Below, in pieces: positions 8,475-57,197 of a DNA stretch of 64,000 nt. The stretch comes from Motilibacter peucedani. GTDB lineage: Bacteria; Actinomycetota; Actinomycetes; Motilibacterales; Motilibacteraceae. The stretch spans positions 62,001-126,000 of the forward strand of contig NZ_RBWV01000010.1 of the NCBI RefSeq assembly GCF_003634695.1, in the 5' to 3' direction. Numbering within the stretch: position 1 is the stretch's first letter; every line of letters starts with the position of its first letter. The notes under the pieces are model-generated. The model had not been told where the DNA came from. It searched no databases and worked only from the letters and a program-made list of their open reading frames with translations. A program made the position numbers and the translations under genes.

Positions 8475-11453
8475 GTGGCAAAGGTCCGGGTCTACGAACT
8501 CGCCAAGGAGTTCGGGGTCGAGAGCAAGGTCGTCCTGGCCAAGCTCCAGGAGATGGGCGAGTTCGTCCGGTCGGCGTCGTCGACCGTCGAGGCTCCTGTC
8601 ATCCGCAAGCTGAAGTCCGAGTTCCCCGGCGGCGCCGGTGGCGCCGCCCCCGCGGCAGGGAGCGCCTCCGACGGCGCGCCGCGCCCCGCCGCCCCCCGTC
8701 CGTCCGGCCCCACGCCGGGCCCGACCCCGGCTCCCGGCCAGGCTCCCGCGCCGACCCCGGGTCCGCGCCCGGCTGCCGCGGCCGCCGCGCCGGCGCCGGC
8801 CGGTCCGCGTCCTGGTCCCGCCCAGCCGAGCGCCCCTGCGGCTCCGGCGGCTCCGCTGGCTCCCGCTGCCGGCCCGCAGGGTCCGCGTCCCGGTTCGGCC
8901 GCCGCGCCGGCCGCTCCCGCGGCCCCGGCCCGTCCGGGCGCTCCGCGCCCGGGTGCGCCGTCGGCACCGGTGGCCCCCGCGGCCTCGGCGGACGCCCCGG
9001 CCGCGTCCCGCCCGGCGCCCGCCGCCGGTGCGCCTCGGCCCGGTGCCCCGCGTCCCGGCGCTGCCGGTCCGCGTCCGGGCAACAACCCGTTCAGCGCCGG
9101 TGGCAGCACCGGCATGCAGCGCCCCGGCGGTCCCCGCCCGGGCAACAACCCGTTCACCGCGGGCGGCAACAGCGGCATGGGGCGCCCCGGCGCCCCCGCC
9201 GCCGGTCCTGCCGGCCCGCGCCCGGGTGCTCCCGGCCCGCGGCCGGGCGGCACCGCCGGTCCGGGCGGTCCCCGCCCGAACCCCGGCATGATGCCTCCGC
9301 GCCCGCAGCAGCGCCCGGCCGGTCCGGGCGGCGTGGGCCGTCCCGGTCCCGGCGGCCGTCCCGGCGGTCCCGGTGCCGGTCGTCCCGGCGCGCCCGGCGG
9401 TGCTGGTCGTCCCGGTGGCGGCGGCTACGCCGGCCGTCCCGGCGGCGGCGGTCCCGGTGCCGGTGGTCCCGGCGGCGGTGGCGGCGGCTTCGCCGGCCGT
9501 CCCGGCGGCGGCGGCGGCCCGCGCGGCCGCGGCGGCACAGCGGGTGCCTTCGGCCGTCCCGGCGGCAAGCCGGCGCGCGGTCGCAAGAGCAAGAAGCAGC
9601 GGCGTCAAGAGTTCGACAACATGCAGGCGCCCTCGATCGGCGGCGTGTCCGTCCCCCAGGGCGACGGCACGACACCGGTGCGCCTGCGCCGCGGCTCCTC
9701 GCTGACCGACTTCGCCGAGAAGATCGGCGCCAACCCGGCGTCGCTGGTGACGGTGCTGTTCCGCCTCGGCGAGATGGCCACCGCGACCCAGTCGCTCGAC
9801 GAGGACACGTTCCGCCTGCTCGGCTCCGAGCTCGGCTTCGACGTGCAGGTCGTCTCCCCGGAGGACGAGGACCGCGAGCTGCTCGAGTCCTTCGACATCG
9901 GCGGCGAGTTCGAGGACGACGAGGCCGACCTGGCCCCGCGTCCCCCGGTCGTCACGGTCATGGGCCACGTCGACCACGGCAAGACCCGCCTGCTCGACGC
10001 GATCCGCAAGACCAACGTGCAGGCCCGCGAGGCCGGCGGCATCACCCAGCACGTCGGCGCCTACCAGGTGTCGCACGAGCACGAGGGCGTCGTCCGCGAC
10101 ATCACCTTCATCGACACCCCGGGCCACGAGACCTTCACGGCCATGCGCGCCCGCGGTGCCAAGACGACCGACATCGTCATCCTGGTGGTGGCGGCCGACG
10201 ACGGCGTGATGCCTCAGACCATCGAGGCGCTCAACCACGCCCAGGCGGCCGACGTCCCGATCGTGGTCGCGGTCAACAAGATCGACAAGCCGGGTGCGGA
10301 CCCGACCAAGGCCCGCGGCCAGCTCACCGAGTACGGCCTGGTGGCCGAGGAGTACGGCGGCGACACCATGTTCGTCGACGTGTCGGCGCTCTCGGGCATC
10401 GGCATCGACGACCTGCTCGAAGCCGTCCTGCTCACCGCCGACGCCTCGCTCGAGCTGGTGGCCAACCCGACGGCCGACGCCCGCGGCACCGCGATCGAGG
10501 CCCGCCTCGACCGCGGTCGCGGCCCGGTGGCGACGGTCCTCGTCCAGCGCGGCACCCTGCGCGTCGGCGACTCGATCGTCTGCGGCGACGCGTTCGGCCG
10601 CGTCCGCGCCCTGCTCGACGAGAACGGCGACCCGATCGAGTTCGCCGGCCCGTCGCGCCCGGCGCAGGTGCTCGGTCTGACCTCGGTGCCGGGGGCCGGT
10701 GACACCTTCCTCGTGGCGCCGGAGGACCGGATCGCCCGGCAGATCGCCGAGCGCCGGCAGGCCGCCGAGCGCAACGCCCAGCTGGCCAAGTCGCGCAAGC
10801 GGGTCAGCCTCGAGGACTTCCTCGAGCGCAGCAAGGTCGAGACGCTCAACCTCATCCTCAAGGGCGACGTGTCCGGCTCGGTCGAGGCCCTGGAGGACGC
10901 GCTCCTCCAGCTCGACGTGGGCGAGGAGGTCGACCTGCGCATCATCGACCGCGGCGTGGGTGCGATCACCGAGAACAACGTCATGCTGGCCGTGGCGTCC
11001 GACGCGGTGATCATCGGCTTCAACGTCCGGCCCGAGGGCAAGGCGCGCGAGCTGGCCGAGCGCGAGGGCGTCGACGTGCGCTACTACTCGGTCATCTACC
11101 AGGCGATCGACGAGGTCGAGGCAGCGCTCAAGGGCCTGCTCAAGCCGGAGTACGAAGAGGTGCAGCTGGGCACGGCGGAGATCCGCGAGGTCTACCGCTC
11201 GAGCAAGTTCGGCAACATCGCCGGCTGCCTGGTGCGCAGCGGGGAGATCCGCCGCAACTCCAAGGCGCGCCTCATCCGCGACGGCGTGGTCGTGGGCGAC
11301 AACCTCTCGATCGGCTCGCTGCGCCGCTTCAAGGACGACGCGACCGAGGTTCGCGAGGGCTTCGAGTGCGGTATCGGTCTGGGGTCGTTCAACGACATCA
11401 AGGTCGACGACGTGATCGAGACCTTCGAGATGCGCGAGAAGCCTCGCGTCTGA
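8475..11453 (+). CDS. infB: translation initiation factor IF-2
   Basis: IF-2 is the GTPase that brings initiator tRNA to the 30S subunit and promotes subunit joining. The 992-residue protein begins with the IF2 N-domain ('[31 protein letters not shown]'). A long low-complexity segment rich in Pro, Ala, Gly and Arg follows (about residues 50-370), then a basic [13 protein letters not shown] stretch. The GTP-binding domain has G1 GHVDHGKT (497-504), G3 DTPGHE and G4 NKID. Domains II-IV follow, ending in '[19 protein letters not shown]'. The GTG start has an AAGGAGAG ribosome site. The length is typical for actinobacteria. Confidence 0.98.
8860..9540 (+). repeat. repetitive Pro/Gly/Arg-rich coding segment of infB
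   Basis: The IF-2 linker repeats short units such as RPGNNPF (twice, followed by similar GGxxGM segments) and many GRPGGGG-type blocks. The DNA is very GC-rich and internally repetitive, so copy number may vary between strains and the region may be prone to sequencing or assembly error. Confidence 0.7.
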
Positions 11454-35235: not shown

Positions 35236-37779
35236 CTAGAGGTGCGCCGCGGCGGCGCGCTCGTGCGCGCGCTCGCCGGTGTCGGCGGCCAGCCACTCGA
35301 GGGTCTTCGAGCCGGGCATCGGCCGCGCGAGGTGGTAGCCCTGGATCTGCTCGCAGCCCAGCGTCGCGACCCGCTCCCACCCGACGCGGGTCTCGATGCC
35401 CTCGGCCACCACGTGCAGCCCCAGGTCGTGGGCGAGCGCGACCGTCGCGCGGATGACCGTGGCGTCGTGCTCCGAGAGCTCGAGCCGCTGCACGAACGAG
35501 CGGTCGATCTTCACCTCGTTCACGGGCAGGCGCTCGAGGTAGGCCAGCGAGGAGTAGCCCGTGCCGAAGTCGTCGACCGACAGGCGCACCCCCAGCGCAG
35601 CCAGGGCGTCGAGCACCGCGAGGCAGCGCTCGGGGTCGGTCATGACGCCGCTCTCGGTGATCTCGAGCGTCAGGGCGGCCGGTGGCGTGCCCGTCTCCGC
35701 CAGCATCCGCGCCACGGCCGCCGGCAGGTCGGCGTCGCGCAGGTCGGCGGGCGTGATGTTGACCGCGATGTCGAGCAGGTGCCCGGCCGCCGCCCACGTG
35801 GCCCGCTGGTGCAGCGCGTCGGAGATCACGGCGTCGGTGAGAGCGCGGATCGTGCCGGTGCGCTCGGCGATCGAGATGATCTCCGGCGGGGGGACGAAGC
35901 CGAACTCCGGGTGGTCCCAGCGCAGCAGCGCCTCGGCGCTGGTCACGCGTCCGGTGTCGGACTCCGCCTGCGGCTGGAACCACACCTCGAAGCGGTGGTG
36001 CTCGATCGCGCGGGGCAGGTCGCCGGCGAGCACGAGCCGTCGGTGGGTCGCGCCGCTGTCCTCCGGTCGGTAGACCGAGACCCGCGTCGCGCCGGCCTTC
36101 GCCGCGTACATCGCCGCGTCGGCGTGGGCGAGCAGCTCGTCGGCCTGCTCGCCGTGCAGCCCCAGCACGGCGATGCCGATGCTCAGCCCGGTGCTCAGCG
36201 TGAGCCCCTCGAGGGGCACCGGCTGGGAGATCACGTGCACCAGCCGCTCGGCGACGCCGAGGGCCTCCTCTGCACCGGCGCCCGGCAGCAGCGCGGCGAA
36301 CTCGTCGCCGCCGAGGCGCGCCACCGTGCCGTTCGTGCTGGCCGCCAGGCGCTGCGCGACGACCTCGAGCAGCGCGTCGCCTGCGCTGTGCCCGAGGGTG
36401 TCGTTGACGTCCTTGAAGTCGTTGAGGTCGATGACCAGGAGCGCGCCGCCGCGCCCGTCGGTGAGCTGGGCCGTGACGCCCTCGAGCAGCGAGCGCCGGT
36501 TGGCGAGCCCGGTCAGCGGGTCGTGCAGGGCCTCGTGCTCGCGCTGCGCGGCGAAGGTGCGCAGGTCGTCCATCAGTCGCGACTTGCTCAGGGAGACGAC
36601 GGCGTGCGCGGCCAGGGTCTCGAACAGCCGGAGGTCCTCGCGTCCGAACGTCTGCTCCTCGAAGCTGCGGTCGGTGACGATGAGGGCGCCGACGAGCGCG
36701 CCGTCCGAGCGCAGCGGCACCGCCAGCCCGTCACGGGGACCCTCGGGCAGCGTCGCCGAGGGACGGCGCCGGCCGGGGGCCGAGCGCAGGACCGTACGCC
36801 CGGCGAGCGCCGCGCGCCACCAGTCGTCGCCGCCGTCGGGCCGCAGGAGCTCCTGCGTGCGCGTCATGGTGCCGCCGTCGAGGTCGAGCCGCACGCCGTC
36901 GGCGTCGACGCCGGGCGTCTGCGGCAGCAGCACGAGCGTGGCGCGGTCGGCGCGCATCAGGGTCGCGGCCTCGCGCAGCAGGGTGTGCGCCGCCTCGGGA
37001 CCGCGCTCGCGGGTCGTGGAGGCGATCTCGACGAAGGAGTAGAGCAGCTGCAGCCGGCTGTAGCCGGTGCCCAGCGTGACGAACGCCCGGTATCCCACGA
37101 CCAGCATCGCCAGTGCGGCGCCCAGCAGCGGCAGCGCCTCGGGACGCACGTCGACGAGCACCACGACCAGCAGCGCGAGGCAGGTGTTGACCAGGGCGGC
37201 GGGCACGCCGGAGCGCAGTGCCTCGCGCATCACCTCGCCGTCGTAGCTGCCGTCCGACAGGCTGATCACCGCGGTGACGGCCATGGCGGTGACCAGGTCG
37301 GTGACGAGGACCGCGGTGGTGGCGGCGAGCCAGCCGCGCGGCTGCGCCGGCGCGCTCGCACCGAGAACGGCGTGGAAGACGACGAGCCCCAGCGTGGCCT
37401 CCACCGCGTACAGCGCGATGTTGAACGCGAGCTTGCGGCCGCGCTGGTGGCTCCACAGCAGCAGTGCGGCGCCGGCGCCCAGCGTGCAGACGGCGAAGTA
37501 CTCGCCGGGCGCGAGCAGCGAGAGGCCGGCGATCGCGGGGACCTCGCGCAGCGTGTGGCTGTGCGAGCTGCGCTCGGCCGGCAGGTGGATGACGAGGATC
37601 TCGGCCAGCGCGAACACCGGCAGCAGGACGAAGGCGGCGGTCGACGGCACCGAGAACCGGGTGTCGAGCCCCGCCGGCTCCGCGAGGAGCGCCGCGAGCG
37701 CGGCCATCGCGCCGATGAGCAGCCAGACCAGCAGCGTCGAGCGGGCGGCCCAGGCGGGAGGCGTCGCGTCGTCGGTCAT
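35236..37779 (-). CDS. membrane GGDEF-EAL protein with GAF-like sensor (c-di-GMP turnover)
   Basis: The 847-residue protein could make and degrade cyclic di-GMP. The first 240 residues hold about seven membrane spans. A GAF-like region follows (about 245-405). The GGDEF domain has intact GGDEF at 490-494 but no RxxD inhibitory site in the usual place before it. The EAL domain has EAL at 616-618 and the further active-site blocks NITPADL, 'LEITES', 'VDDFGTGYSS', 'VKIDRSF', 'VAEGIET' and QGYHLARP, so both domains look catalytically competent. The ATG has a GAGGAGG ribosome site. It follows the S8 peptidase gene after a terminator-like hairpin and converges with rnj. Confidence 0.94.
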   Translation of the reverse strand: MTDDATPPAWAARSTLLVWLLIGAMAALAALLAEPAGLDTRFSVPSTAAFVLLPVFALAEILVIHLPAERSSHSHTLREVPAIAGLSLLAPGEYFAVCTLGAGAALLLWSHQRGRKLAFNIALYAVEATLGLVVFHAVLGASAPAQPRGWLAATTAVLVTDLVTAMAVTAVISLSDGSYDGEVMREALRSGVPAALVNTCLALLVVVLVDVRPEALPLLGAALAMLVVGYRAFVTLGTGYSRLQLLYSFVEIASTTRERGPEAAHTLLREAATLMRADRATLVLLPQTPGVDADGVRLDLDGGTMTRTQELLRPDGGDDWWRAALAGRTVLRSAPGRRRPSATLPEGPRDGLAVPLRSDGALVGALIVTDRSFEEQTFGREDLRLFETLAAHAVVSLSKSRLMDDLRTFAAQREHEALHDPLTGLANRRSLLEGVTAQLTDGRGGALLVIDLNDFKDVNDTLGHSAGDALLEVVAQRLAASTNGTVARLGGDEFAALLPGAGAEEALGVAERLVHVISQPVPLEGLTLSTGLSIGIAVLGLHGEQADELLAHADAAMYAAKAGATRVSVYRPEDSGATHRRLVLAGDLPRAIEHHRFEVWFQPQAESDTGRVTSAEALLRWDHPEFGFVPPPEIISIAERTGTIRALTDAVISDALHQRATWAAAGHLLDIAVNITPADLRDADLPAAVARMLAETGTPPAALTLEITESGVMTDPERCLAVLDALAALGVRLSVDDFGTGYSSLAYLERLPVNEVKIDRSFVQRLELSEHDATVIRATVALAHDLGLHVVAEGIETRVGWERVATLGCEQIQGYHLARPMPGSKTLEWLAADTGERAHERAAAAHL

Positions 37780-37910: not shown

Positions 37911-37941
37911 GGCGCGGGGGACGACTCGCGTCCCCCGCGCC
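37911..37941 (-). terminator. terminator hairpin between the S8 peptidase and GGDEF-EAL genes
   Basis: GGCGCGGGGGACG (37911-37923) is exactly complementary to 37929-37941 with a 5-base loop, 32 bases after the peptidase stop on the minus strand. There is no T-tract. It should end peptidase transcription. The remaining 130 bases to the GGDEF start are GC-rich and can fold further. Confidence 0.65.
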
Positions 37942-37973: not shown

Positions 37974-39584
37974 CTAGTAGAGCCCGCGCCAGCTGCGCGC
38001 GTCCCAGCTGTCGGCGCGCCAGCTGCGCGCGTCCCAGCTGTCGGCGCGCCAGCTGCGCGCCTGCCAGTCGGTGCCGGTCCACGACGCCCCGGTCCAGGCG
38101 ACCGACCCGTAGCCCTGCGGCGTCCAGCTCGTGCCGGTCCAGGTGCGCCCGTTCCACGTGCCGCCCGACCACGCCTTGCCGGCGTCGGAGGCCGCGGCCC
38201 AGTTCGCCGCGTTCCACGGCTGGCCCATGGCGTCGGTCTCGCCGGCCAGCGTGGCACCGCTGGCGGGGTCGGCGACGGACTCGCCACCACGGGTGGCGGC
38301 CAGGCTCCCGGTGCCGGTCGAGCGGGTCCAGTCCTGCGAGGGCACGAACAGCGCGAGCTGCTTCTGCATGTCCTTCATGTCGATGACGCCGGCGCCCATC
38401 GCCGGCTGCGGGTAGGTGTGCAGCGGGTCGGCCGTGGCCTTCAGCACGCCCTTGACCTGGTCAGGCGTGAGCCAGGGGCGCGCCTGGAGCATGAGGGCGA
38501 CCGCGCCCGAGACGACCGCGGTGGCCTGCGAGGTGCCGCTGCCGCGGAAGAAGCGGCCGGTGGTGTCGCCGGGGACGAGGCCCTCGGGGTGGGCGAGGTC
38601 GACGTAGGAGCCCGGGTCGCGCAGCGACACGACCGACTTGCCCGGTGCGAGCAGGTCGGGGCGGCGCGTGGCGTCGCCGCCGTTGCTGAACGAGGCGACC
38701 TGGTCGTCCTTCTCGTCCGCGGTGCCCTCGTGGTCGACGGCGCCGACGGAGATGACGTACGGGTCGGCGGCCGGCATGAGCACCGGGTTCGCGATGCCGT
38801 CGTTGCCGGTCGAGGCGACCACGACGATGCCGTTCTTCCACGCGCTCTCGACGGCCTTGGCGAGCGGGTCCACCGCGGCCGGCTGCGTGGAGTGCACGCC
38901 GTAGGACAGGTTGATGACGCGGACGTTCATGCCGTTGTCGTTGCGGTGCTGCACGACCCAGTCGATCGCCGCGATCACCTGGGTGACGTCGGCGCCGCCG
39001 TCGGCTGCGGCGACCTTCATGTTGAGCAGGCTGGCGCCGGGCGCCACCCCGGCGAACTTCGCGCCGGTCTTCACCGCGGCCGCGGTGGTGTCGCTGCCGG
39101 CGATGATGCCCGCCATGTGCGTGCCGTGGCCGAACCCGTCGGTGTAGCGGGTCGAGTCGAGCTGGCTGTCGAACGAGAGGTCCGGGCCGTTGACGACCTT
39201 GCCGGGCGCGTCGAGGCCGAGCACCGGGGTGATGCCGGTGTCGATCAGGGCGACCGTGACGCCGGTGCCGGTGAGCGGGCGGCCGAGGAGGTCCTTGGTG
39301 GCCAGGAAGTCGGTGATGCTGGCCTGCTTCTTCAGCAGGGGCAGGGCGCCGTTGTCCTTGTTCGGGTCCCACTTGCCGGTGCCCGCGGCCGCCTTGGTGC
39401 TCTCGCCGGAGGTGTCGTCGCCCCACTTGACGGCGAGGTCGGCCTCGTGGCCCTTGGCGGGCTTGGGCGTCGGCGGGGTGGCCGCCGACGCGGAGGAGGC
39501 GGGCCCCGCCACGCCCCACGCCGCGCAGGCGGCGGCGACGACGGCGGCGGCGCGCCAACTGTGGCTGTTGATGCGAAGTTCCAT
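37974..39584 (-). CDS. secreted subtilisin-like S8 peptidase with Trp-periodic tail
   Basis: This exported serine protease has 536 residues. The N-terminus is a clear signal peptide ('SWRAAAVVAAACAAWGVAGP' then ASSASA). The triad is Asp115 (VALIDTGI), His153 (FGHGTHMAG) and Ser352 (GSGTSQATAV), with oxyanion Asn261 in ASTGND. The tail from about residue 457 has Trp, once Tyr, at nearly every fifth residue (457, 462, 472, 477, 482, 487, Tyr492, 497 and so on to 532), linked by small polar residues. The last 26 codons derive from a 30-base tandem repeat. The tail may bind the cell wall or a glycan. ATG 39584 gives the best signal peptide, but a Met four codons earlier is possible. Confidence 0.92.
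   Translation of the reverse strand: MELRINSHSWRAAAVVAAACAAWGVAGPASSASAATPPTPKPAKGHEADLAVKWGDDTSGESTKAAAGTGKWDPNKDNGALPLLKKQASITDFLATKDLLGRPLTGTGVTVALIDTGITPVLGLDAPGKVVNGPDLSFDSQLDSTRYTDGFGHGTHMAGIIAGSDTTAAAVKTGAKFAGVAPGASLLNMKVAAADGGADVTQVIAAIDWVVQHRNDNGMNVRVINLSYGVHSTQPAAVDPLAKAVESAWKNGIVVVASTGNDGIANPVLMPAADPYVISVGAVDHEGTADEKDDQVASFSNGGDATRRPDLLAPGKSVVSLRDPGSYVDLAHPEGLVPGDTTGRFFRGSGTSQATAVVSGAVALMLQARPWLTPDQVKGVLKATADPLHTYPQPAMGAGVIDMKDMQKQLALFVPSQDWTRSTGTGSLAATRGGESVADPASGATLAGETDAMGQPWNAANWAAASDAGKAWSGGTWNGRTWTGTSWTPQGYGSVAWTGASWTGTDWQARSWRADSWDARSWRADSWDARSWRGLY
37985..38060. repeat. 30-base tandem repeat in the S8 peptidase 3' end
   Basis: Two complete identical 30-base units (37985-38014, 38015-38044) and a partial third (16 bases) encode SWRADSWDAR repeats on the minus strand. 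Exact identity suggests recent duplication, so copy number may vary between strains. Confidence 0.85.
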
Positions 39585-56261: not shown

Positions 56262-56463
56262 GACCGACCCCTCTCGACCAGCGATGTCCGCCTGTGCGGC
56301 GGGGAGGCCGCCTACGGTACGCCGGGCGCCCCGTCCCGCCGTGCAGCGGACCAGCGCGCGGCGTCACCTCCGGGCACCGCAGAGCAAGGATCTCCGGACG
56401 GGTCGCCGCTCAACCTCGGAGGGCGGCGAGCGGGGCCCGTCGACCGTCCCGGTGGGCTCGGGC

Positions 56464-56540
56464 GGTCAGCGCGCTCGGGGCAGTCAGCGCACCCGGGGCA
56501 GGCAGCGCGCTCGGGCGGTCAGCGCGCTCGGTCAGCCGGT
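56464..56540. repeat. about 18-base tandem repeats at the recX 3' end
   Basis: CAGCGC cores recur at 56467, 56485, 56503 and 56520 (18, 18 and 17 bases apart) within a CAGCGCGCTCGGG-type unit. The last copy overlaps the recX stop codon. No coding function is apparent. The rest of the recX-rny gap holds no gene. Confidence 0.6.
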
Positions 56541-57197
56541 GCGCTCGGCGCTCGCCGACTCCAGGACCTCGCGGGCGACGCGCAGGGCGAGGCCCGGTGC
56601 GTGCCCCTTGCGCGCGAGCAGCCCGGCGAGCCGCCGCAGCGCGACCTCGCGCTCGAGCCCGCCCATCCGGCGCGCGCGCCGCTGCGCCAGCTCGCGGGCG
56701 GCCTCGACCTCGGCGCCGTCGGGCAGCGCCTCGAGCGCGTCCTCGATCAACCGGTCGTCGACGCCCTTGGTGCGGAGCTCGCGGGTCAGCATGCGGCGGG
56801 ACAGGCCCTTGCTGCGGGCCCTCGAGCGCACCCACGCGTCGGCGTAGGCGCCGTCGTCGACGTAGCCCAGCTCGGTGAAGCGGTCGAGCGCGGCGCCGGC
56901 CGCGCCGTCGGGGACGCCGCGCCCCCGCAGCACGCTGGCCAGCTGGGCCCGCGTGCGCGGGCCGTGGCCCAGCTGCTGCAGGACGACCTCGCGCGCCGCC
57001 TCGTCGGGGTCCGCCGGTCGCCGGGGCTCGCCGCCCTGGCCCTCGCCGCCCCGGCGTCCCCTACCGCCGCGCCGCCCCCGACGGGCCGGCGCACCGGGGT
57101 CAGCGGCACCGGGGTCAGCGGCACCGGGGTCGGCGGCACCGCTCCCCGGTGCGCCGCCGTCGAGACCCGGTGCGCCGCTGTCGTGCGTGGAGCCCAT
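56532..57197 (-). CDS. recX: regulatory protein RecX
   Basis: RecX binds RecA filaments and limits their activity. The 221-residue protein has the RecX helical repeats: 'LQQLGHGPRTRAQLASVLRGRGVPDGAAGAALDRFTELGYVDDGAYADAWVRSR', 'SKGLSRRMLTRELRTKGVDDRLIEDALE' and 'RKGHAPGLALRVAREVL'. Its first 60 residues are a low-complexity extension with three GAADP repeats from a 15-base tandem repeat, followed by an Arg/Gly-rich basic stretch. It starts 6 bases after the recA stop, the standard recA-recX operon. Confidence 0.94.
   Translation of the reverse strand: MGSTHDSGAPGLDGGAPGSGAADPGAADPGAADPGAPARRGRRGGRGRRGGEGQGGEPRRPADPDEAAREVVLQQLGHGPRTRAQLASVLRGRGVPDGAAGAALDRFTELGYVDDGAYADAWVRSRARSKGLSRRMLTRELRTKGVDDRLIEDALEALPDGAEVEAARELAQRRARRMGGLEREVALRRLAGLLARKGHAPGLALRVAREVLESASAERTG
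57100..57144. repeat. 15-base tandem repeats in the recX 5' end
   Basis: A CAGCGGCACCGGGGT-type unit is repeated three times and encodes GAADP on the minus strand. The third unit has one change. Confidence 0.7.

Follow-up and report, generated by a model that had tools for sequence, protein, structure and literature searches.

The analysed stretch of DNA, referred to here as the window, has a length of 64,000 nucleotides; all coordinates are given for this full stretch, and residue numbers are those of the 536-amino-acid S8 protein unless another protein is named. This protein is encoded on the minus strand (37974-39584) by an open reading frame with an ATG start, and is an S8 (subtilase) peptidase with a C-terminal Trp ladder. 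From reading of its sequence, the N-terminus appears to be a Sec-type signal peptide. The catalytic domain (residues 106-388; 38421-39269, minus strand) is matched by the Pfam Peptidase_S8 model with an E-value of 2.1e-49 and is predicted with confidence by AF2. The PF00082 score of 168.8 bits, as compared to a gathering cut-off of 21.8, places the protein among the subtilases, and Peptidase_S8 is the only Pfam domain found in it. All 32 aligned sequences share residues D115, H153, N261 and S352; we take D115, H153 and S352, together with N261 as the oxyanion Asn, to be the catalytic residues of the subtilase fold. The best structural match of the model in the PDB is Tk-subtilisin (TKSP, 9ues_B; VIA Z 40.1, rmsd 2.3, 298 residues), which shares the catalytic fold and the active-site residues with the window protein, whereas the domain preceding the ladder and the Trp ladder itself lie outside the aligned range (79-412). 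The rows obtained with Foldseek and VIA are taken up by subtilisins that cover residues 80-412, and they are uninformative on the tail. Among NCBIfam models the best match is mycosin (TIGR03921), yet the score of 152.3 bits stays below the cut-off of 278.75.

The catalytic domain is followed by a pre-ladder domain (residues ca. 421-480; 38145-38324, minus strand), which was delineated from alignments and has AF2 block means of 77-95. Its consensus is centred around GTGSLE-ARGS-HV...L-GE-DIFG, and the first four ladder Trp residues (457-477) fall inside it. The ladder spans residues 457-532 (37989-38216, minus strand) and consists of 14 Trp and one Tyr with a period of five: Trp is found at positions 457, 462, 472, 477, 482, 487, 497, 502, 507, 512, 517, 522, 527 and 532, Tyr at position 492, and the sole gap in the register is at 467. 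An earlier note on this DNA had described just such a five-residue aromatic register with only position 467 missing, which is confirmed here: a single register takes 15 of the 16 Trp and Tyr residues of segment 450-536, and none of 200,000 shuffles of this segment reached 15 (shuffle maximum 10), so that a chance origin is rejected. The runner-up among periods 3 to 12 is period 10, with 8 residues in register. The span given earlier needs a small correction, as the codon of residue 457 occupies 38214-38216 and the ladder thus ends at 38216 and not at 38215. The last units are encoded by a 30-bp tandem array (37985-38067, minus strand; units W-R-A-D-S-W-D-A-R-S, 2.8 copies, 96% matches).

The next gene after the S8 gene (35236-37779, minus strand) encodes a partner protein of 847 amino acids, which by sequence has a hydrophobic N-terminal membrane domain and for which Pfam gives the further domains. 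The membrane sensor domain (residues ca. 1-250 of the partner; 37030-37779) was delineated by alignment and is not matched by Pfam in the window member. It is followed by GAF (residues 262-396; 36592-36996), GGDEF (417-562; 36094-36531) and EAL (587-820; 35320-36021) domains, all found with Pfam on the minus strand. The GGDEF, EALLRW and DDFGTGY signatures are present, and by these sequence marks the partner belongs to the GGDEF-EAL proteins, as a predicted c-di-GMP enzyme. Between the two genes there is a perfect 13-bp inverted repeat (37911-37941, minus strand; read by eye), which is not a standard terminator because a T-run is absent; the terminator scan lists nothing at this position.

Of known sensor families, MASE9 (PF20972) shows a weak likeness to the membrane domain: 7 of 34 partner membrane domains match it, with a best E-value of 9.2e-5, and the one from locus L128 has an E-value of 1.4e-4 (22.3 bits). 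The window member has no match to MASE9 or other Pfam models, and in its own genome no protein exceeds the MASE9 cut-off of 24.3 bits, the best score being 19 bits at another locus. A search of the 34 membrane domains against NCBIfam gave scattered weak matches only, and the membrane-domain profile found nothing among the PDB sequences at E-values up to 1.

The genome that contains the window encodes four ladder subtilases. A five-TGG pattern retrieved these four S8 ladders and one further TGG-rich tandem array (G000:C12:117175-117282), which fits the ladder pattern and is absent from the S8 matches. A pattern of six TGG at 15-base spacing matched 176 of 296 genomes; these counts were dropped and are not used here, since the backward control also matched widely and GC-rich tandem repeats are thus counted to the same extent as Trp ladders. 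S8 matches were found in 32 of 40 genomes, the window's own genome included, and the ladder and pre-ladder motif are common in the loci that were read.

A contig scan gave 80 loci, the best among the matches listed; the earlier note had called for a survey of the tail in other actinobacterial S8 peptidases. Of the 75 S8 open reading frames read in these best 80 loci among the matches listed, 51 have a period-5 run of six or more Trp, and in these 51 proteins Trp occupies 640 of 668 register positions; in eight of the 75 a period-6 run replaces period 5. The five-residue period is thus strongly conserved, and the combination of predicted disorder with loss of the period in homologues, which the earlier note had set against its own proposal, was not found. 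With a looser reading of the frames, in which a period-5 ladder has at least four Trp and a period-6 ladder at least three, the 82 S8 frames of the same best 80 loci among the matches listed comprise 61 with period 5, 14 with period 6, 4 with neither, and 3 that are cut by a contig end. Period-5 ladders are found in Actinomycetota, Chloroflexota and Dormibacterota, and period-6 ladders in Acidobacteriota, Armatimonadota, Chloroflexota (Anaerolineales) and Pseudomonadota (Alteromonas). The period-6 tails, for example (NIVWGD)n and (SVVWGS)n, occur at loci L109-L112, L115-L117, L123 and L126-L128. The majority unit is x-[ST]-W-[ST]-G, and the centre is Trp in 93% of the distinct units; among the residues at position -2 are R (10%), N (6%), D (4%) and K (3%). 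Ladder length varies widely, the longest run having 39 Trp. The last Trp lies at most six residues from the C-terminus in 53 of 58 complete period-5 proteins and takes the penultimate position in 39 of the 58. Five or six paralogous ladder peptidases were read in each of three genomes that belong to one genus (G014, G037 and G054); the paralogues differ in unit type, and most adjoin a sensor gene.

In several phyla, the genes of ladder peptidases and of the membrane domain are linked, a recurrent context that the earlier note had left out of account. In the window's own genome, which has five matches to the sensor domain, three of the four ladder subtilases are followed by it. A motif scan detected a GGDEF or EAL frame in 40 of the best 80 contig loci among the matches listed. 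With residues 1-399 of the partner as tblastn query, relatives were found in 34 of the best 80 loci among the matches listed and in 11 of 20 regions fetched from the own and related genomes. Additionally, 148 Actinomycetes genomes were searched separately with a membrane-domain model and with a model of the pre-ladder domain plus ladder. The membrane domain was found in 63 genomes and a ladder match in 33, and 31 of these 33 have both. A sensor match lies within 4 kb of 46 of the 68 ladder loci in this set (among the 150 sensor matches listed), and 45 of these 46 sensors among the matches listed are located downstream on the same strand. Of the other 22 ladder loci, three (L243, L247 and L248) have a sensor on closer reading, L243 being a case in which the matched ladder strand was opposite to the real array; in ten the contig stops about 0.3 kb or less from the ladder, and in nine there is some further sequence and no sensor gene. 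Hence 49 of 58 usable ladder loci in the 148 genomes lie beside a sensor domain, counted among the matches listed and including the closer reading.

Four of the ladder matches that were read more closely have no S8 match, namely L240, L244 and the contig-edge pieces L250 and L251. At L240 (1514-3703) there is a frame of 730 amino acids with a run of NGAHW units and no Pfam match; Trp ladders may therefore also exist outside subtilases.

A control based on S8 similarity comprised 118 rows from 40 genomes, about 12 second segments, tail-only pieces and weak rows being left out. A sensor was nearby for 34 of 51 S8 matches with an aligned tail versus 6 of 67 that aligned over the catalytic part only. 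The latter is an alignment class, in which ladder status was read individually for the six sensor-near rows, and all six (L180, L181, L182, L187, L209 and G014:C82, which is L221) have ladders. In the best 80 contig loci among the matches listed, the sensor adjoins 45 of 67 ladder frames with flanking sequence, and the flank is cut in 8 more. Split by type, again for the best 80 loci among the matches listed, period-5 ladders number 41 with a sensor, 13 without and 7 cut; for period-6 ladders the numbers are 4, 9 and 1, and for ladder-less frames 0, 3 and 1. The frames cut by a contig end include one with a sensor (L083, in which the ladder itself is cut), none without, and two with a cut flank. 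The tblastn search with residues 1-399 and the counts in the 148 genomes are the cleaner tests, because the sensor model applied to the 80 loci was trained partly on these neighbours. All S8 frames that were read beside a membrane domain have a ladder, with L224 (four Trp) and L083 (contig-cut ladder) as the weakest cases.

The arrangement and the output of the sensor vary. Among the best 80 loci of the matches listed, the sensor is downstream on the same strand in 38 cases, upstream on the same strand in 4 and on the opposite strand in 4. Among the period-6 ladders of Acidobacteriota, a MASE-like gene is located downstream in L111, L117 and L128, and upstream on the opposite strand in L110. 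The sensors beside ladder peptidases mostly end in GGDEF-EAL domains, as judged by motif. A HisKA-HATPase output is found by Pfam at L217 (1587-3821) and by sequence at L061 (frame from about 6500) and L076. The L110 sensor has an HD domain with GAF, GGDEF and PilZ, whereas those of L111 and L128 have nothing beyond the membrane domain. Another form, of 470-550 amino acids, has a C-terminal part that is not matched by Pfam (L180, L182, L183, L185 and L186). L184 encodes a sixth partner of this size; all six adjoin a ladder S8 gene, and five of the six were scanned with Pfam. Output domains were exchanged while the ladder and the membrane domain were kept.

The linkage has limits. Of 104 listed sensor matches without a listed ladder neighbour, 40 regions were fetched; ten contain a ladder S8 gene and one a ladder at the contig edge, and 29 are without ladder S8, which indicates that the membrane domain is not confined to loci with a ladder peptidase. 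For at least six of the 29, the sensor gene lies less than 1 kb from a contig end. Conversely, 22 ladder frames with flanking sequence have no sensor (best 80 loci among the matches listed), including 9 of the 13 flanked period-6 ladders and several from Micromonosporaceae. When 149 catalytic domains were placed in a tree (quick method, midpoint root), 117 rows, nearly all with period-5 ladders, were separated from the others by a branch of support 99. Sensor-linked members occur throughout this group of 117 and also on separate branches of Chloroflexota (L103 and L114) and Acidobacteriota. The tree indicates that the linkage is partly due to shared descent and was kept across changes in gene order and output.

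We propose that the S8 peptidase works with the product of the next gene as a conserved module of two parts, a secreted protease and a membrane sensor, in which the tail serves as contact device; for this reading as a whole we estimate a probability of roughly 0.45. That the two genes work together is very probable. Gene linkage is not contact, and the chance that the tail itself touches the sensor is put at slightly below even. According to the proposed mechanism, the Trp-ladder tail of the secreted subtilase would hold or present the peptidase on the outer side of the membrane, and the membrane sensor would convert contact with the tail, or its loss or proteolysis, to a cytoplasmic output. 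In the window pair this output would be c-di-GMP turnover by the predicted GGDEF and EAL domains. That the protease leaves the cell by the Sec route, that its tail touches the sensor directly, which way the signal runs and what the substrate is are points that we infer. A wider version would extend the scheme to a hitherto undescribed envelope signalling across phyla, with the ladder tail, of period 5 or 6 and often with a penultimate Trp, as direct ligand of a MASE-like receptor, the ladder unit providing the identity of each pair, and several pairs per cell feeding c-di-GMP, histidine-kinase or HD-GYP outputs; this we consider doubtful.

In the AF2 model of the window protein (32 sequences), confidence is high from about residue 90 to 480, a range that includes the first four ladder Trp, and short strands of one and two residues are found near 472, 476 and 480. 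Residues 481-536 have block-mean pLDDT values of 29-47, and the rest of the ladder is thus without predicted fold. The structure prediction called for in the earlier note therefore gives a divided answer, confident for the first four ladder Trp only. The pre-ladder domain and near-perfect ladder of a Chloroflexota homolog (L080; 149 amino acids, 20 sequences) gave a mean pLDDT of 38, with 25-50 over the ladder and 25-30 in its middle; this model is a weak test, because in the short construct the pre-ladder part is not confident either.

An alternative to the contact module is that the ladder forms a Trp-cored five-residue beta-helix, a divergent pentapeptide fold that binds glycans or the cell wall through its aromatic face, the sensor being merely co-regulated. 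Pentapeptide-repeat proteins form a right-handed quadrilateral beta-helix and have a consensus in which Leu or Phe is central and position -2 is taken by a small residue. The ladder has the five-residue period in common with proteins such as QnrB1 and Qnr, and its unit x-[ST]-W-[ST]-G is compatible with the pentapeptide pattern, Trp taking the central position. PDB searches with tail profiles gave only QnrB1, Qnr, the thylakoid lumenal 15-kDa protein and designed 'beta1' proteins (6 of 6 and 11 of 11 rows), which we take to be pentapeptide-repeat or designed five-residue helix proteins, and QnrB1 has a Trp beneath two ladder positions of the printed alignment. With the reversed tail profile, none of 10 rows was a five-residue-helix protein; the E-values of tail-profile searches are unreliable, since one reversed-profile row reached 1.2e-5. 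The confident first units, with their strands, likewise fit this alternative, as does one paralogous subtilase of the own genome (L003/L161, on C13), which has a CBM5/12 module after its mid-protein ladder and no adjacent sensor gene. L176, a related ladder S8 protein without a membrane-domain neighbour, has a segment after the ladder that resembles the end of L161.

This fold is opposed by the predictions, which give no structure beyond the first units of the window protein nor in the near-perfect L080 ladder, and by the existence of related tails with period 6. The Pfam pentapeptide models matched neither the window protein (E up to 10) nor 30 tail segments (E up to 1); a Lamprin match on 2 of these 30 tails was judged to be a composition artefact. 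Unlike the pentapeptide consensus, the ladder has Trp at the centre, and its position -2 is not restricted to small residues, R, N, D and K being frequent there. The ladder is therefore not filed as a pentapeptide-repeat protein, given these differences and the low-confidence predictions. The relation to beta-solenoids that had been suggested earlier is weakly supported, by the forward profile searches and the short strands of the model. A Trp-cored pentapeptide helix is possible, and the confidently modelled first units leave room for the ladder to function like a pentapeptide-repeat protein; beyond these units, an extended tail, or one that folds only when bound, is most likely. Overall, a glycan-binding helix with a merely co-regulated sensor appears unlikely.

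Comparison of repeat units bears on the other explanations. Unit-to-unit comparison of pN and pS in 100 arrays with at least eight Trp gave pN/pS ratios of 0.92, 0.90, 0.86 and 0.51 at positions -2, -1, +1 and +2, respectively. In 65 arrays pN was below pS and in 35 it was not. The window array has mixed units and a pN of 0.59, exceeding the pS of 0.43, and judging from these values its units look free apart from the Trp residues; together with the 35 arrays this indicates that often only the Trp positions look constrained. Other arrays encode a near-invariant protein despite synonymous change (L085, pS 0.36 and pN 0; L209, 0.49 and 0.01; L122, 0.43 and 0.02). Some family members have units of one and the same protein sequence despite diverged synonymous sites, which suggests that these arrays are old and apparently kept by selection. 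The earlier statement that the array is still growing or shrinking is consistent with the 30-bp copies at the end of the window ladder, whereas the arrays of some relatives look old.

Instead of contacting the sensor, the tail could be a disordered sticker-and-spacer segment, comparable to FG-repeat sequences, that keeps the protease on surfaces or self-associated, the linkage with the sensor reflecting a shared regulon only. The low pLDDT over most of the ladder, the single aromatic residue per unit with Ser, Thr, Gly and Ala as spacers, and the variable ladder length are in agreement with such a tail. It leaves unexplained why the period is strict across hundreds of units, why the protein sequence of units is conserved against synonymous divergence in some arrays, and why a sensor with exchanged outputs recurs as neighbour; we regard this explanation as improbable as well. 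With still less probability, the tail resembles a tandem pheromone precursor in that it stores repeated Trp peptides, which proteolysis would free and the neighbouring membrane receptor would sense. The different unit types among paralogues of one genome (G014, G037 and G054), the near-identical, protein-conserved units of some arrays, and the frequent penultimate position of the last Trp would fit this explanation; the mixed units of the window array, the lack of a common cleavage site on inspection of the unit table by eye, and the fact that the ladder is joined to the protease itself do not. Finally, functionless neutral slippage of a 15-bp unit, to which the 30-bp copies and the excess of pN over pS at the non-Trp positions of the window array could be attributed, is contradicted by the Trp count at the register positions of the 51 long period-5 ladders (best 80 loci among the matches listed) and by the protein-level conservation of some arrays, and is very improbable.

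The preferred reading, a secreted protease and a membrane sensor in contact through the tail, can be compared with LapD/LapG, in which a membrane-bound c-di-GMP protein controls a periplasmic protease. Both systems pair a membrane GGDEF-EAL protein with an extracytoplasmic protease, the window pair by prediction. Unlike LapG, which is a cysteine protease of another fold, the protease is a subtilase with a ladder, and the sensor occurs with several alternative outputs. No description of the ladder or of the gene pair was found in a literature search with narrow terms and open-licence papers, and the findings suggest an undescribed two-part surface-signalling system. What MASE-type sensors perceive is poorly known, and a neighbouring secreted protein is a testable candidate input. 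In several phyla a repetitive, easily mutated tail is encoded beside such sensors, and if the tail does bind the sensor, it would represent a new kind of repeat-based recognition element. A passage of a review on c-di-GMP sensing counts MASE1 among putative sensory domains without discernible purpose (PMC8846402).

Further observations concern other Trp-rich and repetitive sequences. A Trp-rich C-terminal domain, W_rich_C, is named on a Synechococcus subtilisin in a passage of PMC2605481; identity of the ladder with this domain (PF07483) was rejected, as it is absent among the Pfam matches of the window protein up to an E-value of 10. Elsewhere in the window, positions 56456-56548 contain a tandem array of 4-5 copies of a 17-18 bp unit, a length that is not a multiple of three, and at positions 9065-9536 GC-rich tandem repeats overlap in a cluster, their periods ranging from 3 to 84 bp.
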